This document shows positions 14,181 through 36,457 of a DNA stretch of 37,101 nt, in pieces. The translations under genes were made by a program, and so were the position numbers. This stretch comes from an uncultured delta proteobacterium. GTDB lineage: Bacteria; Myxococcota_A; UBA9160; JAFDET01. Position 1 is the stretch's first letter, and each line of letters begins with the position of its first letter. The stretch covers positions 1 to 37,101 of the forward strand of contig CAMYLJ010000056.1 of assembly GCA_947259215.1 (NCBI GenBank). Reading direction: 5' to 3'. Below the pieces are notes generated by a model. That model saw only the letters and a program-made list of their open reading frames with translations, was not told the DNA's origin and did not search any database.

Positions 14181-15389
14181 GTGCCGGACCACGCCAACCC
14201 GGTGGCGCGGGCGGCCGCCGCCAGCGTGAACAGCATCATCCCGGCGGAGTTCCTGGGCCCCGATCCCGACCTCTTCGACGCGCTGAGCGCGCTCGTCCTC
14301 GGCCCGGAAGACTCCACCGGCGAGCTGCGCGCCCTGGCGCCGGACGAGGTCTTCGCGCGCAACGCCCTGGCCCTGAGCAGCCTCGCCGCCCACCACCGCA
14401 GCTTGCGCGACCGCCTCCGGAGTGTCCGTCCCGGCTGGGAGACGTCCGCGGCCGGATCCGCCACGGCGTCCCGAGGCTGGCTCCAGACCGCCTCGCTGGG
14501 CGGCCTGCCGGTTGCCGCCGCGCCGGACCGCGACCCGCCGCGGGCGCGCGGATCCGCCTGGGTGGCGGGGCGCGGCTTCACCGGCAGCCGGGACACGACC
14601 GATCGCGAGCTGGGCTACGACGTGGACGGCGGCGGCGGCGCGGCGGGCCTCGACGTCGCGCTGGGCGAGCAGGTCCTGCTCCGCCTGGCCGGCGGCGGTT
14701 CGGGCGCCAACGCCGACTTCGATCACGCCAGCGGACGTCTCGACGCCGACGCCTTCTTCGCCAGCCTGTACGCCCAGGTGCGCCCGTTCGAGCGCCTCAG
14801 CCTGGACGCCACCGGATCCTGGGCCTGGAACCAATACAACTCGCGCCGCGACGTGGTCCTCGGCGACTTCCGCGCCAGCCCGAGCGACGACTCCGACGGG
14901 CGGACCTTCGGGTTCGACGGCTACGCCTTCTACGAGCTGCGCGCCGGACGCGCCGTCTTCGGGCCGGCGTTCGGCTTCAGCTACCTCGACGCGCGCGCCG
15001 ACGGCTTCGCCGAGAGCGGCGGCTCGATCGCCGACCTCGAGCTGGACCCGCACAGCGCCCGCTCGACCACGACCCGCCTGGGCGGCGAGCTGCGTCTCGA
15101 CCTGGGCCTGGCGGAGCGCGTGCGCATCGCCCCGGAGCTCTTCGCCTACTGGGTTCACGAGTACCAGGACGACCCGCCCTCGCTCAGCGCCGGCTTCCGC
15201 CGCTACCCCTCCGCGCTGCCGATCCGGCTCGACGGCGACCGGCCCGACGGCGACTTCCTGGAGCTGGCCGCCGGCGTCGGCGCGAGCGTGGGCAACCGGG
15301 TCCACGCCTGGCTGCGCTACGAGACCGCGCTCTCTGTCCGCGACTGGGACGTGCATCACTTCACCGGCGGCGTCGACTACCGCTTCTGA
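14181..15389 (+). CDS. Autotransporter-type outer-membrane beta-barrel domain (C-terminal part of a split gene)
   Basis: About 402 residues. A linker rich in Ala and Leu leads into a region of alternating hydrophobic and polar strands: SAWVAGRGFTG, LRLAGGGSGANADF, SLYAQVRPFERLSLDATGSW, GFDGYAFYELRAGRAVFGP, TTRLGGELRLDLGLAERV, HAWLRYETALSVRDWD. It ends GGVDYRF with a terminal Phe, the usual signal for insertion by the BAM complex. This matches autotransporter translocator domains, here about 280 residues. The frame has no good start of its own: the annotated GTG is internal and no signal peptide precedes it. It is most likely the second half of the gene starting at 13751. The passenger would be the P-domain. 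Length and terminal Phe suggest the barrel itself is complete. Confidence 0.75.
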   Translation: MPDHANPVARAAAASVNSIIPAEFLGPDPDLFDALSALVLGPEDSTGELRALAPDEVFARNALALSSLAAHHRSLRDRLRSVRPGWETSAAGSATASRGWLQTASLGGLPVAAAPDRDPPRARGSAWVAGRGFTGSRDTTDRELGYDVDGGGGAAGLDVALGEQVLLRLAGGGSGANADFDHASGRLDADAFFASLYAQVRPFERLSLDATGSWAWNQYNSRRDVVLGDFRASPSDDSDGRTFGFDGYAFYELRAGRAVFGPAFGFSYLDARADGFAESGGSIADLELDPHSARSTTTRLGGELRLDLGLAERVRIAPELFAYWVHEYQDDPPSLSAGFRRYPSALPIRLDGDRPDGDFLELAAGVGASVGNRVHAWLRYETALSVRDWDVHHFTGGVDYRF

Positions 15390-15395
15390 CGCGGT

Positions 15396-15460
15396 CCTAA
15401 GAAACGGGGACGGTCCTAAGAAACTGCAGCAGTTTCTTAGGACCGTCCCCGTTTCTTAGG
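15396..15460. repeat. 65-base perfect palindromic repeat, copy 1
   Basis: Two perfect 32-base arms around a single central A. Each arm is CCTAAGAAA, CGGGGACGGT, CCTAAGAAACTGC. The same arm sequence recurs at 30986-31058 with a central T, and a decayed half-copy lies at 36435-36457. It begins 7 bases after the autotransporter stop and ends next to the GGGAGG ribosome site of the aromatic leader peptide. It is AT-richer than the surroundings. Such dispersed intergenic palindromes resemble REP/RAYT-type elements. No transposase is in the window. Confidence 0.85.
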
Positions 15461-15473
15461 GAGGTTCCTTGGG

Positions 15474-15557
15474 GTGTCGCACGCGAGCACCCGTTTCTAC
15501 GCCTTCTTCTTCGGCTTTTCCTGGCAGGGCGCCTGGGGCGAGGGCTCCACCGCGTAG
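15474..15557 (+). CDS. Aromatic-rich attenuator leader peptide for DAHP synthase
   Basis: A 27-codon reading frame, GTG to TAG, with GGGAGG at 15459-15464, 9 bases before the start. It encodes MSHASTRFYAFFFGFSW followed by QGAWGEGSTA. Residues 8-17 contain five Phe, one Tyr and one Trp, and a second Trp follows at 21, so 8 of 27 residues are aromatic. A strong intrinsic terminator starts 25 bases after the stop and the DAHP synthase start lies 83 bases after it. This is the layout of a ribosome-mediated attenuator like the pheL and trpL leaders. When charged tRNA-Phe (or Tyr/Trp) is scarce, stalling in the Phe run should free the G-rich segment 15534-15546 to pair with the left terminator arm. 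The peptide composition and positions are seen directly; the mechanism is inferred. Confidence 0.8.
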   Translation: MSHASTRFYAFFFGFSWQGAWGEGSTA

Positions 15558-15581
15558 GCACGCACGGCACGAGCGGAACCC

Positions 15582-15611
15582 AGCCCCGAGACGACCTCGG
15601 GGCTTTTTTTT
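15582..15611 (+). terminator. Intrinsic terminator (attenuator) upstream of DAHP synthase
   Basis: A 9-bp stem AGCCCCGAG / CTCGGGGCT around loop ACGAC, running directly into eight Ts (15604-15611). It is the only classical T-tract terminator in the window. It sits between the aromatic leader peptide and the DAHP synthase ribosome site, not after a gene, so it must be conditional. The segment TGGGGC at 15534-15539, or GGGCT at 15542-15546, inside the leader can pair with AGCCCCG of the left arm and would serve as antiterminator. Confidence 0.88.
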
Positions 15612-15639
15612 GGTCTCGGGGTCGAGGAGGTCGCATCCG

Positions 15640-27816: not shown

Positions 27817-29549
27817 CCGAGGCCCTCCTCCACACTCCGGACCACCGCGTCCACGTCCATGCCTTCGGCGCGCCACTGCTCGGCGGCGTCGCCGTGGTCC
27901 ACGAAGCGATCACCGATGCCGAGGCAGCGCACGCGCAGGTTGCGGCGCCGTGGCTCCAGGCACTCGAGGACCGCGCTCCCGAAGCCGCCCGCGCGCACGT
28001 GGTCCTCGACGGTGACGACGAGCCGGCTGGCTTCGGCCACGTCCCACAAGAGCTCGTGGTCCAGGGGCTTCGCGTAGCGGGCGTCCACCACCGCCACGGA
28101 GATCCCGCGGCAGGCCAGGCGGTCGGCGGCCTCCCGCGCCACGTCCACGGCCTTCCCGAGCGCCACGATGGCAGCGTCGCTCCCGGCGCGCAGTCGCTCG
28201 CCGCGCCCGAGCGGCAGCGGCTTCGGCTCGGGGTCGAGCGCCGCACCCGGCGCCGCCCCACGCGGGAAGCGCAGCGCGAAGGGACGCCCGCAGTCGACCG
28301 CGGTGGCCAGCAGGTGCTGGAGCTCGTTCTCGTCCCGGGGCGCGGCCACCACCAGGCCCGGAATCGCGCGCAGGTAGGCGAGGTCGAAGACGCCGTGGTG
28401 CGTGGGGCCGTCGCCGCCCACGAGACCGGCGCGGTCCAAGGCGAACGTCACCGGCAGGTCCTGGAGCGCCACGTCGTGGACGATCTGGTCGAAGGCCCGC
28501 TGGAGAAACGTCGAGTAGATGGCGCAGACCGGACGCAGGCCCTCGGCCGCCAGTCCGGCGGCGAAGGTGACGCCGTGCTGCTCGGCGATCCCGACGTCGT
28601 AGACGCGCTTCGGGTGGCGCCGCGCGAAGCGGTCGAGCCCGGTGCCGTCGGGCATGGCGGCCGTGATGGCCACGACCCGGGGATCGCGGTCGGCGATGCG
28701 GGCCAGGGCGTCGGCGAAGGCGACCGTCCAGCTGGGCGCGCCAGCGCCGCCGCCGCGCGTGCCGCCCGCCACCTCGAAGGGACCGGTGGCGTGCCAGCCG
28801 AAGGGGTCGGCCTCGGCGGGCGGATAGCCGCAGCCCTTGCGGGTGCGCACGTGCAGCAGGCTCGGACCCGAGGCGTCGCGCAGCTGCTGGAGGGCCGGGA
28901 CCAGGGCGGAGAGGTCGTGGCCATCCACCGGTCCGCGGTACGCGAGACCCAGCGCCCGCACCAGCCCGGCCACGTCGCCGGTGCGCGCCAGGCCGCCGAC
29001 ATTGGGCGCGATCGCCATGCCGTTGTCGTTCCACACGACCCGGACGTCGCTGCCCAGATGCCCGGCGTGGTTCAAGGCCTCGAACGCCATCCCGGCGGTG
29101 GCGCCGCCGTCGCCGATCACCGCCACCACCCGGCGCGGCTCGCCCAGGCGCCGCGCCGCCTCGGCCAGCCCCAGGGCCGCCGAGATCGAGGTGCCCGCGT
29201 GGCCCGCGCCGAAGACGTCGTGGGGACTCTCCACCCGGCGCAGGAAACCGCTCGGACCGTCCGCCCGCTTGATCCGGCGCAGGCCCTCGCGCCGGCCCGT
29301 CAGCGCCTTGTGGCCGTAGGTCTGGTGACCCACGTCCCAGACGATGCGATCGCGCGGCGTGTCGAAGACCCAGTGGAGACCGACCGTGAGCTCCACCGCA
29401 CCCAGGCTGCCGGCGAAGTGCCCGCCGACCTCGGCGCCTACGGAGACCAGCTCCTCACGCAACGCTGCGGCCACGCCCGGCAGCGCCTCGCGCGGCAGCC
29501 GGCGCAGGTCCGACGGATCCTCGATCTCCCGGAGCGGGTCCACCCCCAT
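27813..29549 (-). CDS. dxs: 1-deoxy-D-xylulose-5-phosphate synthase, short form
   Basis: Thiamine-diphosphate enzyme that makes DXP from pyruvate and glyceraldehyde 3-phosphate, the first MEP-pathway step. Seen: WDVGHQTYGHK (His for substrate), FGAGHAGTSISAALG, the ThDP motif GDGGATAGMAFEALNHAG ... NDN, YRGPVDGHD, and the transketolase central domain with DVGIAEQHGVTFAAGLA and GLVGGDGPTHHGVFDL. At 578 residues it is about 40-60 shorter than usual. The loss is between NDNGMAIAPNVGG and GPVDGHD, a flexible loop in normal DXS. GDGGATAGM replaces the common GDGALTGGM. The ATG at 29549 has only a weak ribosome site. First gene of dxs-hpnD-fni. Confidence 0.93.
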   Translation of the reverse strand: MGVDPLREIEDPSDLRRLPREALPGVAAALREELVSVGAEVGGHFAGSLGAVELTVGLHWVFDTPRDRIVWDVGHQTYGHKALTGRREGLRRIKRADGPSGFLRRVESPHDVFGAGHAGTSISAALGLAEAARRLGEPRRVVAVIGDGGATAGMAFEALNHAGHLGSDVRVVWNDNGMAIAPNVGGLARTGDVAGLVRALGLAYRGPVDGHDLSALVPALQQLRDASGPSLLHVRTRKGCGYPPAEADPFGWHATGPFEVAGGTRGGGAGAPSWTVAFADALARIADRDPRVVAITAAMPDGTGLDRFARRHPKRVYDVGIAEQHGVTFAAGLAAEGLRPVCAIYSTFLQRAFDQIVHDVALQDLPVTFALDRAGLVGGDGPTHHGVFDLAYLRAIPGLVVAAPRDENELQHLLATAVDCGRPFALRFPRGAAPGAALDPEPKPLPLGRGERLRAGSDAAIVALGKAVDVAREAADRLACRGISVAVVDARYAKPLDHELLWDVAEASRLVVTVEDHVRAGGFGSAVLECLEPRRRNLRVRCLGIGDRFVDHGDAAEQWRAEGMDVDAVVRSVEEGLG

Positions 29550-29598
29550 GCCGCGCGCAGGATCCGTTCCGGGCGCGCAGCCCGCAAGCAGAATCGCT

Positions 29599-29631
29599 GC
29601 ACCAAAAGCCGGTATCGGTCAGTTTCGGTGC
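29599..29631. promoter_or_regulatory. Candidate operator between divergent dxs and sugar dehydrogenase
   Basis: The 10-mer ATCGGTCAGT (29614-29623) is identical to one half of the palindrome upstream of tetR. It lies between imperfect inverted arms GCACCAAAA (29599-29607) and TTTCGGTGC (29623-29631), which match at 8 of 9 positions. Distance to the dxs start is 64 bases and to the sugar dehydrogenase start 86 bases, so it could affect either gene. Confidence 0.4.
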
Positions 29632-29709
29632 CTGCCGGGCCGTTTCCGTGACGGGGATCGCAGCGCGGACGCTCCCGCGCCGCCATCCTCGCAGGTGGAG
29701 GAACCACCC

Positions 29710-30981
29710 GTGCTGCGAGCCATCTCCCTGCTGATCATCCTGCTCACGTCGCTGGCAGCGGGCGCGCCGGCGCGCGCCCAGCTCGCATCGACCCCGGTCG
29801 CGTCCGGGCTCGACCAGCCGATCTTCCTGGATGCGCCAGCCGGCGATCCGCGCCTGTTCGTGCTGGAGCGCGACGGGCGCATCGTCCTGATCGTCTCCGG
29901 CGCCGTCCGCACCACCCCGTTCCTGGACATCACGGATCGCGTCGGCACGGCCGGCGAAGGTGGACTCCTCGGGCTCGCCTTCGATCCGGACTACGCCACG
30001 AGCGGCCTCTTCTACGTCTACTACACCGATCTGGCCGGGGACTCGCTGCTCTCCCGTTTCAGCGTGTCCGCGGATCCCGACGTCGCGGACCCGTCCGAGC
30101 AGGTCCTGCTGGTGGTGGACCAGCCCTACTCCAACCACAACGGCGGCACGATCGCCTTTGGACCCGACGACTTCCTCTACCTGGGCCTCGGTGACGGAGG
30201 CTCCAGCAACGACCCGCTCGGCGCGGGCCAGGACCCCCTACGGCTGCTGGGAAAAATGCTGCGTCTGGATGTAGGGACCCCGCCCGCGCCGGGCTCGACT
30301 CCCGTGCCGGGAACCGGCTACGCCGTCCCGGCCGACAACCCCTTCGTGAACGACCCGAGCACCCGCGACGAGATCTGGGCCCTGGGGCTGCGCAACCCCT
30401 ACCGCTGGAGCTTCAACCCCTTGACCCGGAATCTCTGGATCGCCGACGTCGGCCAGGGTCAGCGCGAAGAGGTGAACTTCGAGCCATGGACGAGCCCTGG
30501 CGGGCGGAACTACGGCTGGAAGGTCTGGGAGGGCAACCGCTGCAACACGACGTCCGCCGCCTGCGCGGCCCCCGGCTTCACGCCCCCGCTGCTCGACTAC
30601 GATCACTCGGCCGGCAACTGCTCCATCACCGGCGGCTACTCGTACCGCGGGCGCCTGATTCCCCACGCCTTCGCTCAGTACTTCTTCGGTGACTTCTGCT
30701 CCGGCCGGATCTGGACCTACGACACACGGACCGGCACGGTCAGCGACGTGAGCACGCAGCTCGGCCCCGCCGCGAACGCGGGCTTCCAGCTGGTGTCCTT
30801 CGGCGAGGACGGGATGGGCGAGCTCTACGTGGTGCACCAGGGCGTCGAGATCTACCGCGTGGTGAGCAGCATTCCGATCGTCCCCGCCGGCTGCGGCAGC
30901 GACTTCGTCCAGGCCGCCTGGCTCCCGCCGGCGCTGTTCGTCGTGGGACGCTGGCGCCGCCGTCGGCGAGCAGCCGCCTGA
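29710..30981 (+). CDS. Secreted PQQ-dependent glucose/sorbosone dehydrogenase-like protein
   Basis: A 423-residue protein with a signal peptide (LRAISLLIILLTSLAAGAPARAQ) and the six-bladed propeller of soluble aldose sugar dehydrogenases (GSDH family). Characteristic stretches: GLDQPIFLDAPAGDPRLFVLE, GEGGLLGLAFDPDY, YSNHNGGTIAFGPDDFLYLG, LGDGGSSNDPLG, EIWALGLRNPYRWSF, WIADVGQGQREEVNFE and YGWKVWEG. These cover the PQQ and calcium site (His, Asp, Asn and Arg residues). It would oxidise a sugar in the periplasm or outside. The C-terminus ends AGCGSDFVQAAWLPPALFVV then GRWRRRRRAAA: a short hydrophobic stretch followed by five Arg, which looks like a sorting tail. The GTG has GGAGGA 7 bases upstream. 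Which sugar is used is unknown. Confidence 0.9.
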   Translation: MLRAISLLIILLTSLAAGAPARAQLASTPVASGLDQPIFLDAPAGDPRLFVLERDGRIVLIVSGAVRTTPFLDITDRVGTAGEGGLLGLAFDPDYATSGLFYVYYTDLAGDSLLSRFSVSADPDVADPSEQVLLVVDQPYSNHNGGTIAFGPDDFLYLGLGDGGSSNDPLGAGQDPLRLLGKMLRLDVGTPPAPGSTPVPGTGYAVPADNPFVNDPSTRDEIWALGLRNPYRWSFNPLTRNLWIADVGQGQREEVNFEPWTSPGGRNYGWKVWEGNRCNTTSAACAAPGFTPPLLDYDHSAGNCSITGGYSYRGRLIPHAFAQYFFGDFCSGRIWTYDTRTGTVSDVSTQLGPAANAGFQLVSFGEDGMGELYVVHQGVEIYRVVSSIPIVPAGCGSDFVQAAWLPPALFVVGRWRRRRRAAA

Positions 30982-30985
30982 GAAA

Positions 30986-31058
30986 CGAGCCTAAGAAACG
31001 GGGACGGTCCTAAGAAACTGCTGCAGTTTCTTAGGACCGTCCCCGTTTCTTAGGCTCG
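30986..31058. repeat. 73-base perfect palindromic repeat, copy 2 (overlaps the trpS 3' end)
   Basis: Perfect 36-base arms around a single T: CGAGCCTAAGAAACGGGG, then ACGGTCCTAAGAAACTGC. The inner 32 bases of each arm are identical to copy 1 at 15396-15460. It sits between convergent sugar dehydrogenase and trpS, and supplies the last codons and the TAA stop of trpS (complement of 31031-31033). It can fold as a long hairpin in both transcripts and so could act as a bidirectional end signal. Confidence 0.88.
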
Positions 31059-32032
31059 GCGCGCGGCGGGGCGCCGAGCCCCGCGGCCTCGCGCACGGCG
31101 GCGAAGACGGGCTCGGCGATGACGCGCGCGCGGCGCACCCCGTCCGCCAGCACGTCCTCCACCTCGTCCGGTCGGGCCGCCAGGGCCTCGCGGCGCTCGC
31201 GCATGGGCTCGAAGTAGGCCTGGAGCCGCGCCAGCAGGTCCTTCTTCACGTCGCCGTAGCCGAGCCCGCCCGCGCGGGCGCGCTCGAACATCTCCTCTCG
31301 CTCCGGCTCGCTGGCGAAGAGCGACCACAGCTGGAAGACCGGTGTATCCGTCTTCTTGGGCGCCTCCACCGGGGTCGAGTCCGTCACGATCCCCATCACG
31401 GCCTTCTTGGTGGCCTTGTTCGCGGCGAACATCTCGATCGTGTTGCCGTAGGCCTTGCTCATCTTGCGCCCGTCGGTGCCCGGTACCACCGCCACCGCCT
31501 CCTCGATCAGGGGCTCCGGCAGGCGAAAGACCTCGACGCCGTAGGTGTGGTTGAAGCGCTGGGCCATGTCGCGGGCCATCTCCAGGTGCTGCTTCTGGTC
31601 CTGGCCGACCGGTACCCCGTCCGGGTTCACCTGGAGGATGTCCGCCGCCATCAACACCGGGTACGCGAAGAGCCCATGATCGGGCTGGAGGCCCTGGGCG
31701 ACCTTGTCCTTGAACGAGTGGGCGCGCTGGAGCAGGCCCATGGGCGTCACGGTGGAGAGGATCCAGGCCAGCTCGCAGGTCTCCGGCAGGTCCGACTGCC
31801 GGTAGAGGATGGCGCGCGCGGGATCGAGGCCGCAGGCCAGGTAGTCCAGGGCCATCTCGCGGGCGAAGCCCCGGCGCGCATCGGCGTCGCGGACCGAGGT
31901 CATGGAGTGGTAGTCCGCCAGGAAGTAGATGGCCTCCCCTTGGTCCTGCAGCGCCACGTGCTGGCGCAGCGCGCCGAAGTAGTTGCCGATGTGCAGGGTG
32001 CCGGAAGTCTGGATGCCCGAGAGGATGCGCAC
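31031..32032 (-). CDS. trpS: Tryptophanyl-tRNA synthetase
   Basis: A 333-residue class I synthetase that charges tRNA-Trp. The HIGH-type motif is SGTLHIGNYFG (about residues 10-20) and the KMSKS-type motif is KMSKAYGN at 190-197, with Ala in place of the last Ser. IYFLADYHSMT, YPVLMAADIL and PVGQDQKQHLE are standard TrpS stretches. The GTG at 32032 begins MRILSGIQ and lies 2 bases after the aminotransferase stop, so the two are coupled. The C-terminal PKKRGRS and the stop codon are encoded by the palindromic repeat at 30986-31058, so the native end was probably altered by its insertion. The catalytic core is intact. Confidence 0.95.
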   Translation of the reverse strand: MRILSGIQTSGTLHIGNYFGALRQHVALQDQGEAIYFLADYHSMTSVRDADARRGFAREMALDYLACGLDPARAILYRQSDLPETCELAWILSTVTPMGLLQRAHSFKDKVAQGLQPDHGLFAYPVLMAADILQVNPDGVPVGQDQKQHLEMARDMAQRFNHTYGVEVFRLPEPLIEEAVAVVPGTDGRKMSKAYGNTIEMFAANKATKKAVMGIVTDSTPVEAPKKTDTPVFQLWSLFASEPEREEMFERARAGGLGYGDVKKDLLARLQAYFEPMRERREALAARPDEVEDVLADGVRRARVIAEPVFAAVREAAGLGAPPRAEPKKRGRS

Positions 32033-32034
32033 CG

Positions 32035-32979
32035 CTAGGCCTCGTCGACGTAGCGGAGCCAGTGCTCGAAGTCCGGGTCCTGGCCGTGGGTGACGACGTG
32101 GAAGCGGTCGCGCAGCGCGCGGGTCACGGAGCCTGTGGCACCGTCGGCCACCGCGCGGTCGTCGATGGAGACGACCGGCAGCACGTTGGCGGTGGTGCCC
32201 GTGAGGAAGACTTCCGCGGCCTCGAAGAGCGCCTCCGGCGCGAACGCCTCCTCGCGCACCGGCCGGCCGTCGTGCTTGGCGAGCTCCATCACCGAGCGCC
32301 GCGTGACCCCGTGCAGCACGTTCGCCGGCGGCGGCGTCACCAGGCTGCCGTCGGCGTCCACCAGGAAGATGTTGGTCGTCGGTCCCTCCGCCACGAGGCC
32401 GTCCGCGTCGAGGAGCAGCACCTCGTCGTAGCCCGCGGCCTTGGCCCGGGCCTTGGCCAGCATGGGCGAGGTGTAGTTGGCCGCCACCTTCGCCTGGGGC
32501 TCCACGATGTCGGCGCGCCGGTTGCGCCGCTCCTTCTCCACCCAGACCCGGTACTCGAGCCGCAGCTCGGGCTTCACGTCCTTGTGCGCGACGATGTCGC
32601 GGCCCGGGTCGTAGGCGGCGATGGCTACGGACACCCGCGGGTCGAGGGGCACCACGTCCACCTCGATCGACGGCAGGTAGGCGCTGATCTTCACCGCCTT
32701 GGCGCCCGGGTTCGCCCGCACGGTCTCGCAGACGGCTGCCGCCAGCTCGTCGGCGGAGTGGCGGAGGTCCAGCCCGACGAGCTCCGTCGAGAGCCGGAGG
32801 CGCTCCAGGTGCTCGCCCAGGCGGAAGACCGCGGTCCCGCGCCGCGCGGGATGCACGCTCATGTAGTCGAAGACGAGCGAGCCCCGCTGGAGGCTGTGGG
32901 ACAGCACGTGCACCGTGGCATCCGCCCACGGAACCAGCGTGCCGTCGACCCAGATGCGACGGTCGTTGGAGTCGGACAC
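32035..32979 (-). CDS. ilvE: Branched-chain amino-acid aminotransferase-like protein (class IV PLP)
   Basis: A 314-residue fold-IV aminotransferase that would transfer amino groups between branched-chain 2-oxo acids and glutamate. The N-terminus IWVDGTLVPWADATVHVLSH is typical. The PLP lysine region reads QAKVAANYTSPMLAKARA, then GYDEVLLLDADGLVAEGPTT, NIFLV and HGVTRRSVMELA, all family signatures. D-amino-acid aminotransferase and aminodeoxychorismate lyase share the fold, but length and the EGPTTNIF motif favour IlvE. The GTG at 32979 has no clear ribosome site. It is followed by trpS after 2 bases; the pairing has no obvious metabolic logic. Confidence 0.88.
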   Translation of the reverse strand: MSDSNDRRIWVDGTLVPWADATVHVLSHSLQRGSLVFDYMSVHPARRGTAVFRLGEHLERLRLSTELVGLDLRHSADELAAAVCETVRANPGAKAVKISAYLPSIEVDVVPLDPRVSVAIAAYDPGRDIVAHKDVKPELRLEYRVWVEKERRNRRADIVEPQAKVAANYTSPMLAKARAKAAGYDEVLLLDADGLVAEGPTTNIFLVDADGSLVTPPPANVLHGVTRRSVMELAKHDGRPVREEAFAPEALFEAAEVFLTGTTANVLPVVSIDDRAVADGATGSVTRALRDRFHVVTHGQDPDFEHWLRYVDEA

Positions 32980-35326: not shown

Positions 35327-35410
35327 AGGGGACGTTCCTCGACTCTTGCACTTGGGGACAGTCCTTGGCGCAAGAGTGTCCCCAAGCGCAAGACTCGAGG
35401 AACGTCCCCT
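35327..35410. repeat. 84-base near-perfect palindrome, divergent member of the GGGGAC repeat family
   Basis: Two 37-base arms differ at only three positions and enclose a 10-base loop. Each arm holds two modules, AGGGGACGTTCCTCGA and CTTGGGGACA, built on the same GGGGAC core as the repeats at 15396 and 30986, but with different flanks (CTCTTGC in place of CCTAAGAAA). It starts 16 bases after the glycosyltransferase stop and lies before an unrelated membrane protein gene. A REP/RAYT-type element is the likely class (inference). Confidence 0.8.
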
Positions 35411-36428: not shown

Positions 36429-36434
36429 CCCCGA

Positions 36435-36457
36435 GAATCGGGGACGGTCCTGAGAAA
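36435..36457 (+). repeat. Decayed half-copy of the palindromic repeat
   Basis: GAATCGGGGACGGTCC then TGAGAAA matches one arm of the repeats at 15396 and 30986 (GAAACGGGGACGGTCC then TAAGAAA) with two changes. No matching second arm follows. It lies 6 bases after the small-protein stop and 41 bases before the 3' end of the next gene. Confidence 0.65.

Follow-up and report, generated by a model that had tools for sequence, protein, structure and literature searches.

The stretch of DNA analysed here (the window; 37,101 nt from an uncultured delta proteobacterium) carries nearly the same long palindrome at two distant intergenic sites, which raises the question of where such an element comes from and why its arms are perfect. 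The first-pass annotation described two perfect palindromes sharing 32-nt arms, and this was borne out: copy 1 has mismatch-free arms of 32 nt and copy 2 mismatch-free arms of 36 nt, in each case around a 1-nt centre (Table 1). Over their common 65 nt the two copies differ only in the central base, and the outermost 4 nt of each arm of copy 2 exceed copy 1. The decayed half that had been placed near 36435 is a real half of the same family (family 1); no partner arm was seen for it. The arm core matched five times in the window, compared with no match in 100 dinucleotide shuffles of the window, and from base composition about 1e-11 palindromes with such an arm length are expected there; a chance origin of the window palindromes is excluded. 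Both window copies, the only two that were folded, formed complete DNA hairpins (z -15.0 and -16.2), and copy 1, the only copy scanned for terminators, scored as terminator-like on both strands. A search of the window for RNA families (Rfam) gave a tRNA as its sole match.

Table 1. Coordinates, within the window, of the family-1 palindromes and the genes that adjoin them.
Feature	Coordinates	Strand	Basis or remark
Palindrome copy 1, family 1	15396..15460	.	arms (15396-15427 and 15429-15460), folding
Palindrome copy 2, family 1	30986..31058	.	arms (30986-31021 and 31023-31058), folding
Single decayed half, family 1	36434..36457	+	22/24 identity to the arm
Autotransporter beta-domain gene	14181..15389	+	frame end 6 nt before copy 1
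Glucose/sorbosone dehydrogenase-like (GSDH-like) gene	29344..30981	+	frame end 4 nt short of copy 2
Class I (Trp/Tyr type) aminoacyl-tRNA synthetase frame	31031..32929	-	convergent toward copy 2; frame start predicted

Copy 1 is flanked by the autotransporter gene and a DAHP synthase gene, and copy 2 by the GSDH-like gene and the convergent aminoacyl-tRNA synthetase gene, whose frame runs into the palindrome and takes its stop codon from it. At 15474-15612, in the space that separates copy 1 from the DAHP synthase gene, lies a short Phe/Trp-rich frame, VSHASTRFYAFFFGFSWQGAWGEGSTA, followed by an intrinsic-terminator-like site at 15582-15604 plus a T run. Judged by its sequence, this arrangement looks like an attenuator leader; there was no Rfam match at 15474-15612. 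A palindrome of a third family (GGGGACGTTCCTCGACTCTTGC...), with 37-nt arms that are 92% complementary, is located at 35327-35410. This family gave 24 genome matches at up to two mismatches (reversed control, 12 at up to three), and its copies look less perfect. Its ends are borne by neither of the two RAYT genes described below; similar-looking ends surround a RAYT in the relatives G002 and G003 (L096, L097).

Counting the arm across the host genome (G000; 5.70 Mb, 128 contigs, estimated 95.74% complete) confirmed that it is repeated. The family-1 core, GGGGACGGTCCTAAGAAA, had 45 matches at up to three mismatches and 43 at up to one, and its reversed control had none. The 43 matches correspond to 19 two-armed palindromes and five halves, of which two enclose a transposase gene and three are others, so that the two copies first noticed, while both real, understated the number. 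Palindromes also lie at or near contig ends (C30:11, C40:61179, C43:33399, and C39:547), and copy number may be underestimated because such palindromes may break the assembly. When one free position and at most one mismatch were allowed, the core was found in three of the 60 genomes searched, the relatives among which are all outside the host genus: the host itself (43) and, from another genus of the same family, G003 (18) and G002 (6). With the same settings it was absent from the other 57, including the same-family genome G001. A second family, defined by the ends of a second RAYT gene, yielded 56 half matches (control, 0) and 25 two-armed copies in the host genome.

Three Y1_Tnp genes were found in the host genome. 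RAYT1 (contig C26; L034 1080-1955, minus strand; 291 aa) is enclosed by inverted halves of the family-1 palindrome, the very arrangement that the first-pass annotation had associated with an element of this kind. The inverted repeats of the RAYT1 unit are 32 nt long with one mismatch, and their inner tips (AAACGCTTC) recur in the two-armed palindrome at C15:64059, as one would expect if the palindromes were transposase units that lack the gene. RAYT2 (L035 1260-2231, plus strand) has different ends (GGGGACGTTGGTTNAGAAGTTCA), with inverted repeats of 23 nt and one mismatch, and these match family 2. The end motifs, GGGGACGG for RAYT1 and GGGGACGT for RAYT2, fit GGGGWS, without A at position 7. 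Both proteins passed the Pfam Y1_Tnp cut-off of 23 bits (39.9 for RAYT1 and 44.0 for RAYT2). NCBIfam REP_Tyr_transpos was the best model for both, at scores (65.8 and 62.0) under its cut-off of 80, and the Bac_DnaA_C match at the C-terminus of each was weak (E 0.19 and 0.28) and under the Pfam cut-off. The HUH and tyrosine motifs are intact: HVH (60-62) and Y119, which we take to be the catalytic tyrosine, were invariant in 11 of 11 aligned homologues. The third Y1_Tnp match, C58:5613-5912, has the best Pfam score (99.7 bits) and an open frame of 115 aa, and is perhaps an ordinary IS200-type transposase.

A 53-nt direct duplication with three mismatches (L034 1008-1060 and 2048-2100) meets both ends of the RAYT1 unit within 1 nt, and from its sequence looks like a long target duplication. 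To our knowledge, such a duplication is unexpected for Y1 transposases, and IS200/IS605 elements are not known to make one. Among the 41 transposase units tested (RAYT1, RAYT2, and 39 drawn from the 63 named inverted-end loci considered below), RAYT1 alone had a target-site duplication, the other 40 having none; at 18 family-1 and 25 family-2 palindromes, no shared direct word longer than 9 nt was present in the 70-nt flanks. With one of 41 units and no palindrome showing it, target-site duplication is unsupported as a general rule.

Homologues of RAYT1 occur in 21 of the 60 genomes searched, the host included. A contig scan with RAYT1 alone returned 84 pattern matches and no confirmed relative. 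An alignment-based scan of named genomes, from which the best 80 of 517 loci were kept, led to records titled Deltaproteobacteria, Myxococcota, Desulfobacterales, Methylomirabilota, Nitrospirae, Chloroflexi, and others, and some of these 80 loci seem identical to places in the 60-genome search. Of the best 80 of 517 loci, nine with an incomplete flank, 63 had terminal inverted repeats whose score exceeded the 99th percentile for 472 cross-locus pairs, and in 56 of those 63 the ends carried GGGACG followed by a locus-specific stretch. Many ends in this set (L196-L275) also carry two similar 7-nt words just inside GGGACG. At some spacing the words matched at 6 or 7 of 7 positions in 26 of the 56 loci, and in 23 of the 26 the spacing was 8 or 9 nt; the mean match was 5.50, compared with 4.65 in shuffles, and p < 0.05 was reached singly in 9 of 56 loci, the loci being related. 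These paired words are possible binding sites.

The closest known kind is the TIRYT/TIRtron, with REPIN-like dimers, the transposases probably belonging to TnpAY1 subclass 2.1. In the available parts of Di Nocera 2013 (PMC3733652), TIRYTs and TIRtrons are RAYT-like genes within long terminal inverted repeats, some with GGGGWSAS, and dimeric TIR families are described. The elements reported here likewise have a RAYT-like Y1 transposase enclosed by long inverted repeats whose core is GGGG(A)(C) and dispersed as well as dimeric copies of the end repeats in the genome. To judge by the weak Bac_DnaA_C match, the transposase may also have an extra C-terminal region akin to the DnaA_C/HTH-like domain of subclass 2.1. 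They depart from the TIRYT consensus at position 7 in RAYT1 and at positions 7 and 8 in RAYT2, and their dimers are near-loopless palindromes. In the accessible portion of Quentin et al. 2018 (PMC6006769), subclass 2.1 is given as the probable equivalent of TIRYTs and TIRtrons, and no REP-like sequences are identified for it, whereas in this genome each of two such genes has ends that are matched by a repeat family of its own.

Resemblances to other REP-related systems are more partial. As in REPINs (the available parts of Bertels and Rainey 2011, PMC3116915), two inverted ends form one hairpin that is dispersed as a unit and linked to a RAYT; unlike REPINs, the palindromes have no GTAG-type tag, the family-1 arms of about 30 nt are fully paired around a very short tip, and two-armed copies number 19 and 25 rather than hundreds. 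By eye, a constant GTAG tag is absent from the arms of both families, which pair along their full length in most copies; in some family-2 copies AGTAG occurs within the arm rather than as a tag. A classical GTAG REP is rejected for want of this constant tag, so that of the earlier proposal, a REP element moved by a RAYT, the link to the RAYT stands and the TIRYT/TIRtron branch fits better. In CGTC-tagged REPs, as far as the accessible sections of Di Nocera et al. 2013 describe them, head-to-head dimers also occur, and the opposite strand of GGGGACG contains CGTC; in those REPs the stem measures 8-9 bp, the tag is unpaired, and no transposase is associated, whereas here the motif forms part of the paired arm and the elements are linked to a transposase. 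With IS200/IS605 elements the units share the Y1 HUH transposase family but not the long inverted ends or the 53-nt direct duplication that flanks RAYT1.

We consider it highly probable that the palindromes are non-autonomous, REPIN-like miniature elements belonging to a Y1 transposase of TIRYT type (RAYT family). Each palindrome would consist of both terminal inverted repeats of a transposase unit, joined head to head with a very short loop, and would fold as single-stranded DNA. The RAYT would recognise the GGGGACG-containing end and move or copy the palindrome into gene junctions, often convergent ones.

Occupied and empty sites were compared in three genomes of the same family (G001, G002, and G003). 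Most junctions could not be scored because these relatives belong to another genus; at the remaining family-1 sites there was a single flank, the flanks lay on different contigs, sequence or genes intervened, or the site fell outside the search. At C5:183165 and C5:187089, both flanks were found and the palindrome was absent in three of three relatives. It was absent from all three at C12:72742 as well, and at C15:64059 from both relatives that have both flanks, G001 matching the tRNA side only. The site of window copy 2, judged by its right-hand gene, has no palindrome in any of the three; G001 and G002 have about 1 kb extra between this gene and the homologue of the left gene, which is without a match in G003. 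At C45:3918, both flanks are present in all three relatives and the family-1 palindrome in none. The counterpart in G002 holds a palindrome that has 43-nt arms and a 32-nt loop and belongs to another family, that in G003 one of a third family (31-nt arms, 9-nt loop), and that in G001 no palindrome; of four genomes, three thus carry a different palindrome family each at this convergent junction (L183, L184), and one carries none. Palindromes with arms of at least 14 nt occurred in 4 of the 39 stretches taken from the relatives (L121, L183, L184, and L189). From the occupied and empty junctions we infer that the palindromes are mobile, and absence in the relatives could partly reflect loss.

The two arms of a copy are coupled. 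At inner-arm positions, the arms of one copy differed at 1 of 399 in family 1 and at 4 of 647 in family 2, compared with 6.2% and 9.7% for arms of different copies; no re-pairing out of 20,000 gave a value as low as that within copies (permutation p 5e-5 for each family). Deviations from the consensus were mirrored rather than one-sided in 17 vs 1 cases in family 1 and 30 vs 3 in family 2, that is 47 vs 4 in all, counted over copies and not as independent events. Eleven of the 47 are tip variants, and these are the 11 of the 17 family-1 deviations that fall at two tip columns; because several copies carry the same variants, they count subfamilies, not events. Without the tip columns, family 1 still had six mirrored deviations and one one-sided, with differences at 1 of 361 positions within copies vs 3.0% between them, and again none of 20,000 re-pairings was as low. 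The test left out (i) the family-1 halves C40:14377 and C56:36440, the extra half C38:17620, and two matches with three mismatches; and (ii) the one-armed family-2 places C17:57313, C40:61179, C43:32495, and C43:33399, together with both RAYT units. One family-2 copy, C5:71432, includes a stretch of N. In REPINs, changes on one side of the hairpin that compensate for those on the other have already been noted, in the available parts of Bertels and Rainey 2011 (PMC3116915).

Perfect arms had been read initially as a sign of recent mobility or active maintenance. Mobility agrees with the junction comparison, but youth alone is insufficient, because the copies differ with both arms altered alike. 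It is doubtful, in our estimation, that the insertions simply started perfect, with variants issuing from several perfect sources and no copying between arms in place. In keeping with such youth, one-sided differences are few (one in family 1 and, depending on the columns compared, three or four in family 2), much of the family-1 variation is concentrated in few tip variants, and the core is commonest in the host and rarer in or absent from the other genomes. The source variants, however, must themselves have altered both arms alike, and the four-combination patterns at columns 12/20 and 19/20 (family 1) and 13/21 and 16/21 (family 2) would need repeated coupled changes or recombination. Ends parted by a transposase gene also count against youth alone. 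Over the 63 loci among the best 80 of 517, such ends differ at 83 of 1723 positions, a loose comparison because a single alignment served both to delimit the ends and to compare them; at least one difference occurs in 37 of the 63 loci, 22 of the 83 lie in two related loci, and both RAYT units of the host have unequal ends. These differences fit a coupling that needs the arms close together. Under the transposase reading, one arm would template the other, at transposition or by template switching during replication, and the arms would stay identical. Template switching has been proposed to create and mend hairpins (the accessible part of PMC8794818).

Family-1 arms run past the core into copy-specific bases, by a mean of 10.63 nt vs 6.83 in cross-paired flanks (p 5e-5), and family 2 shows a small extension (1.28 vs 0.78, p 0.009). 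An insertion of family 1 into small palindromes that already existed would produce copy-specific extension of this kind, and the available sections of Di Nocera 2013 (PMC3733652) give a precedent in that some GTAG and CGTC REP families sit inside small palindromes. At C15:64059, by eye, the outermost CCA/TGG seem to lie in native sequence on either side, as that explanation would have it. Against it, family 2 is scarcely extended, and C5:183165 has no palindrome in three relatives. There the left gene ends Trp-Arg-Pro, and in the relatives Trp-Lys-Pro (by eye), so the left outer arm, GCGCCCC, is native coding sequence; for GGGGCGC, its mirror image in the right arm, nothing corresponding is visible in the short spacer of the relatives. 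We regard insertion into existing palindromes as rather unlikely. The extra arm at C5:183165, the one clear site, looks like an inverted copy of the end of the neighbouring gene. Together with the mirrored changes, this host-flank copy suggests hairpin-templated copying, which would sometimes overrun the edge of the element and lengthen the palindrome with host sequence. We offer only tentatively, as a proposal that may well be wrong, the extension of this to a self-perfecting, outward-growing palindrome, in which each round of hairpin-templated copying from arm to arm would keep the arms alike, overrun would add inverted host flank, each copy would gain longer arms of its own, new families would arise in this way, and RAYT recognition would stay fixed on GGGGACG. 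In the open-licence literature, we noticed no report of outward growth of such elements.

The palindromes might instead be bidirectional terminators, or stabilisers of mRNA 3' ends, that selection keeps between convergent genes; the mirrored changes could then also stem from selection for an RNA hairpin, as compensatory RNA changes. Orientation was called at 18 family-1 palindromes (C30:11, at a contig start, was omitted) plus RAYT1 and at 25 family-2 palindromes plus RAYT2, using a coding-frame score trained on four window genes that themselves flank the window copies. Of 33 sites with a confident call, 25 were convergent (a share that stands without a genome-wide baseline for junctions), 8 co-directional, and 0 divergent, the convergent share being 8 of 10 in family 1 and 17 of 23 in family 2. 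Calls at 9 of 19 and 3 of 26 sites were uncertain and uncounted, among them both RAYT units, a divergent call at C39:547 that would run counter to a terminator role, and window copy 1, labelled convergent though the DAHP synthase gene on its right shares the strand of the gene on its left. Most elements have stop codons no more than about 40 nt away. REPs favour convergent and unidirectional junctions, according to the available parts of PMC3733652. The sequence outward of the inner stem is T-rich (at least 5 T in 8 nt) on 30 of 38 sides in family 1, which together with the two-strand score of copy 1 favours termination, but on only 1 of 50 in family 2, whose arms are mirrored too. At C10:4990 (L190-L192), where the gene is sigma-factor-like by eye, the relatives seem to have ordinary GC hairpins at its 3' end, as terminators kept by selection might lead one to expect. 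Termination leaves unexplained the RAYT genes inside the same ends, the two RAYT-family pairs, and the orthologous absence, and we judge it quite unlikely as the reason for the palindromes; as a putative side effect of the transposase-derived elements, two-way transcription termination may occur. A conserved regulatory role as the sole explanation, with the window copies standing alone at conserved sites, is rejected because the scored junctions of relatives lack the palindrome.

What the locus offers is two TIRYT-type genes tied to two palindrome families in one genome, a kind of element described in 2013 and little studied since. Two RAYT-family pairs, together with occupied and empty junctions, make the origin and the perfection of REPIN-like elements testable. 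That one convergent junction is occupied by a different palindrome family in each of three genomes suggests that gene 3' ends are used repeatedly, and this junction, the coupled arms, and the host-flank copy are of interest to specialists.
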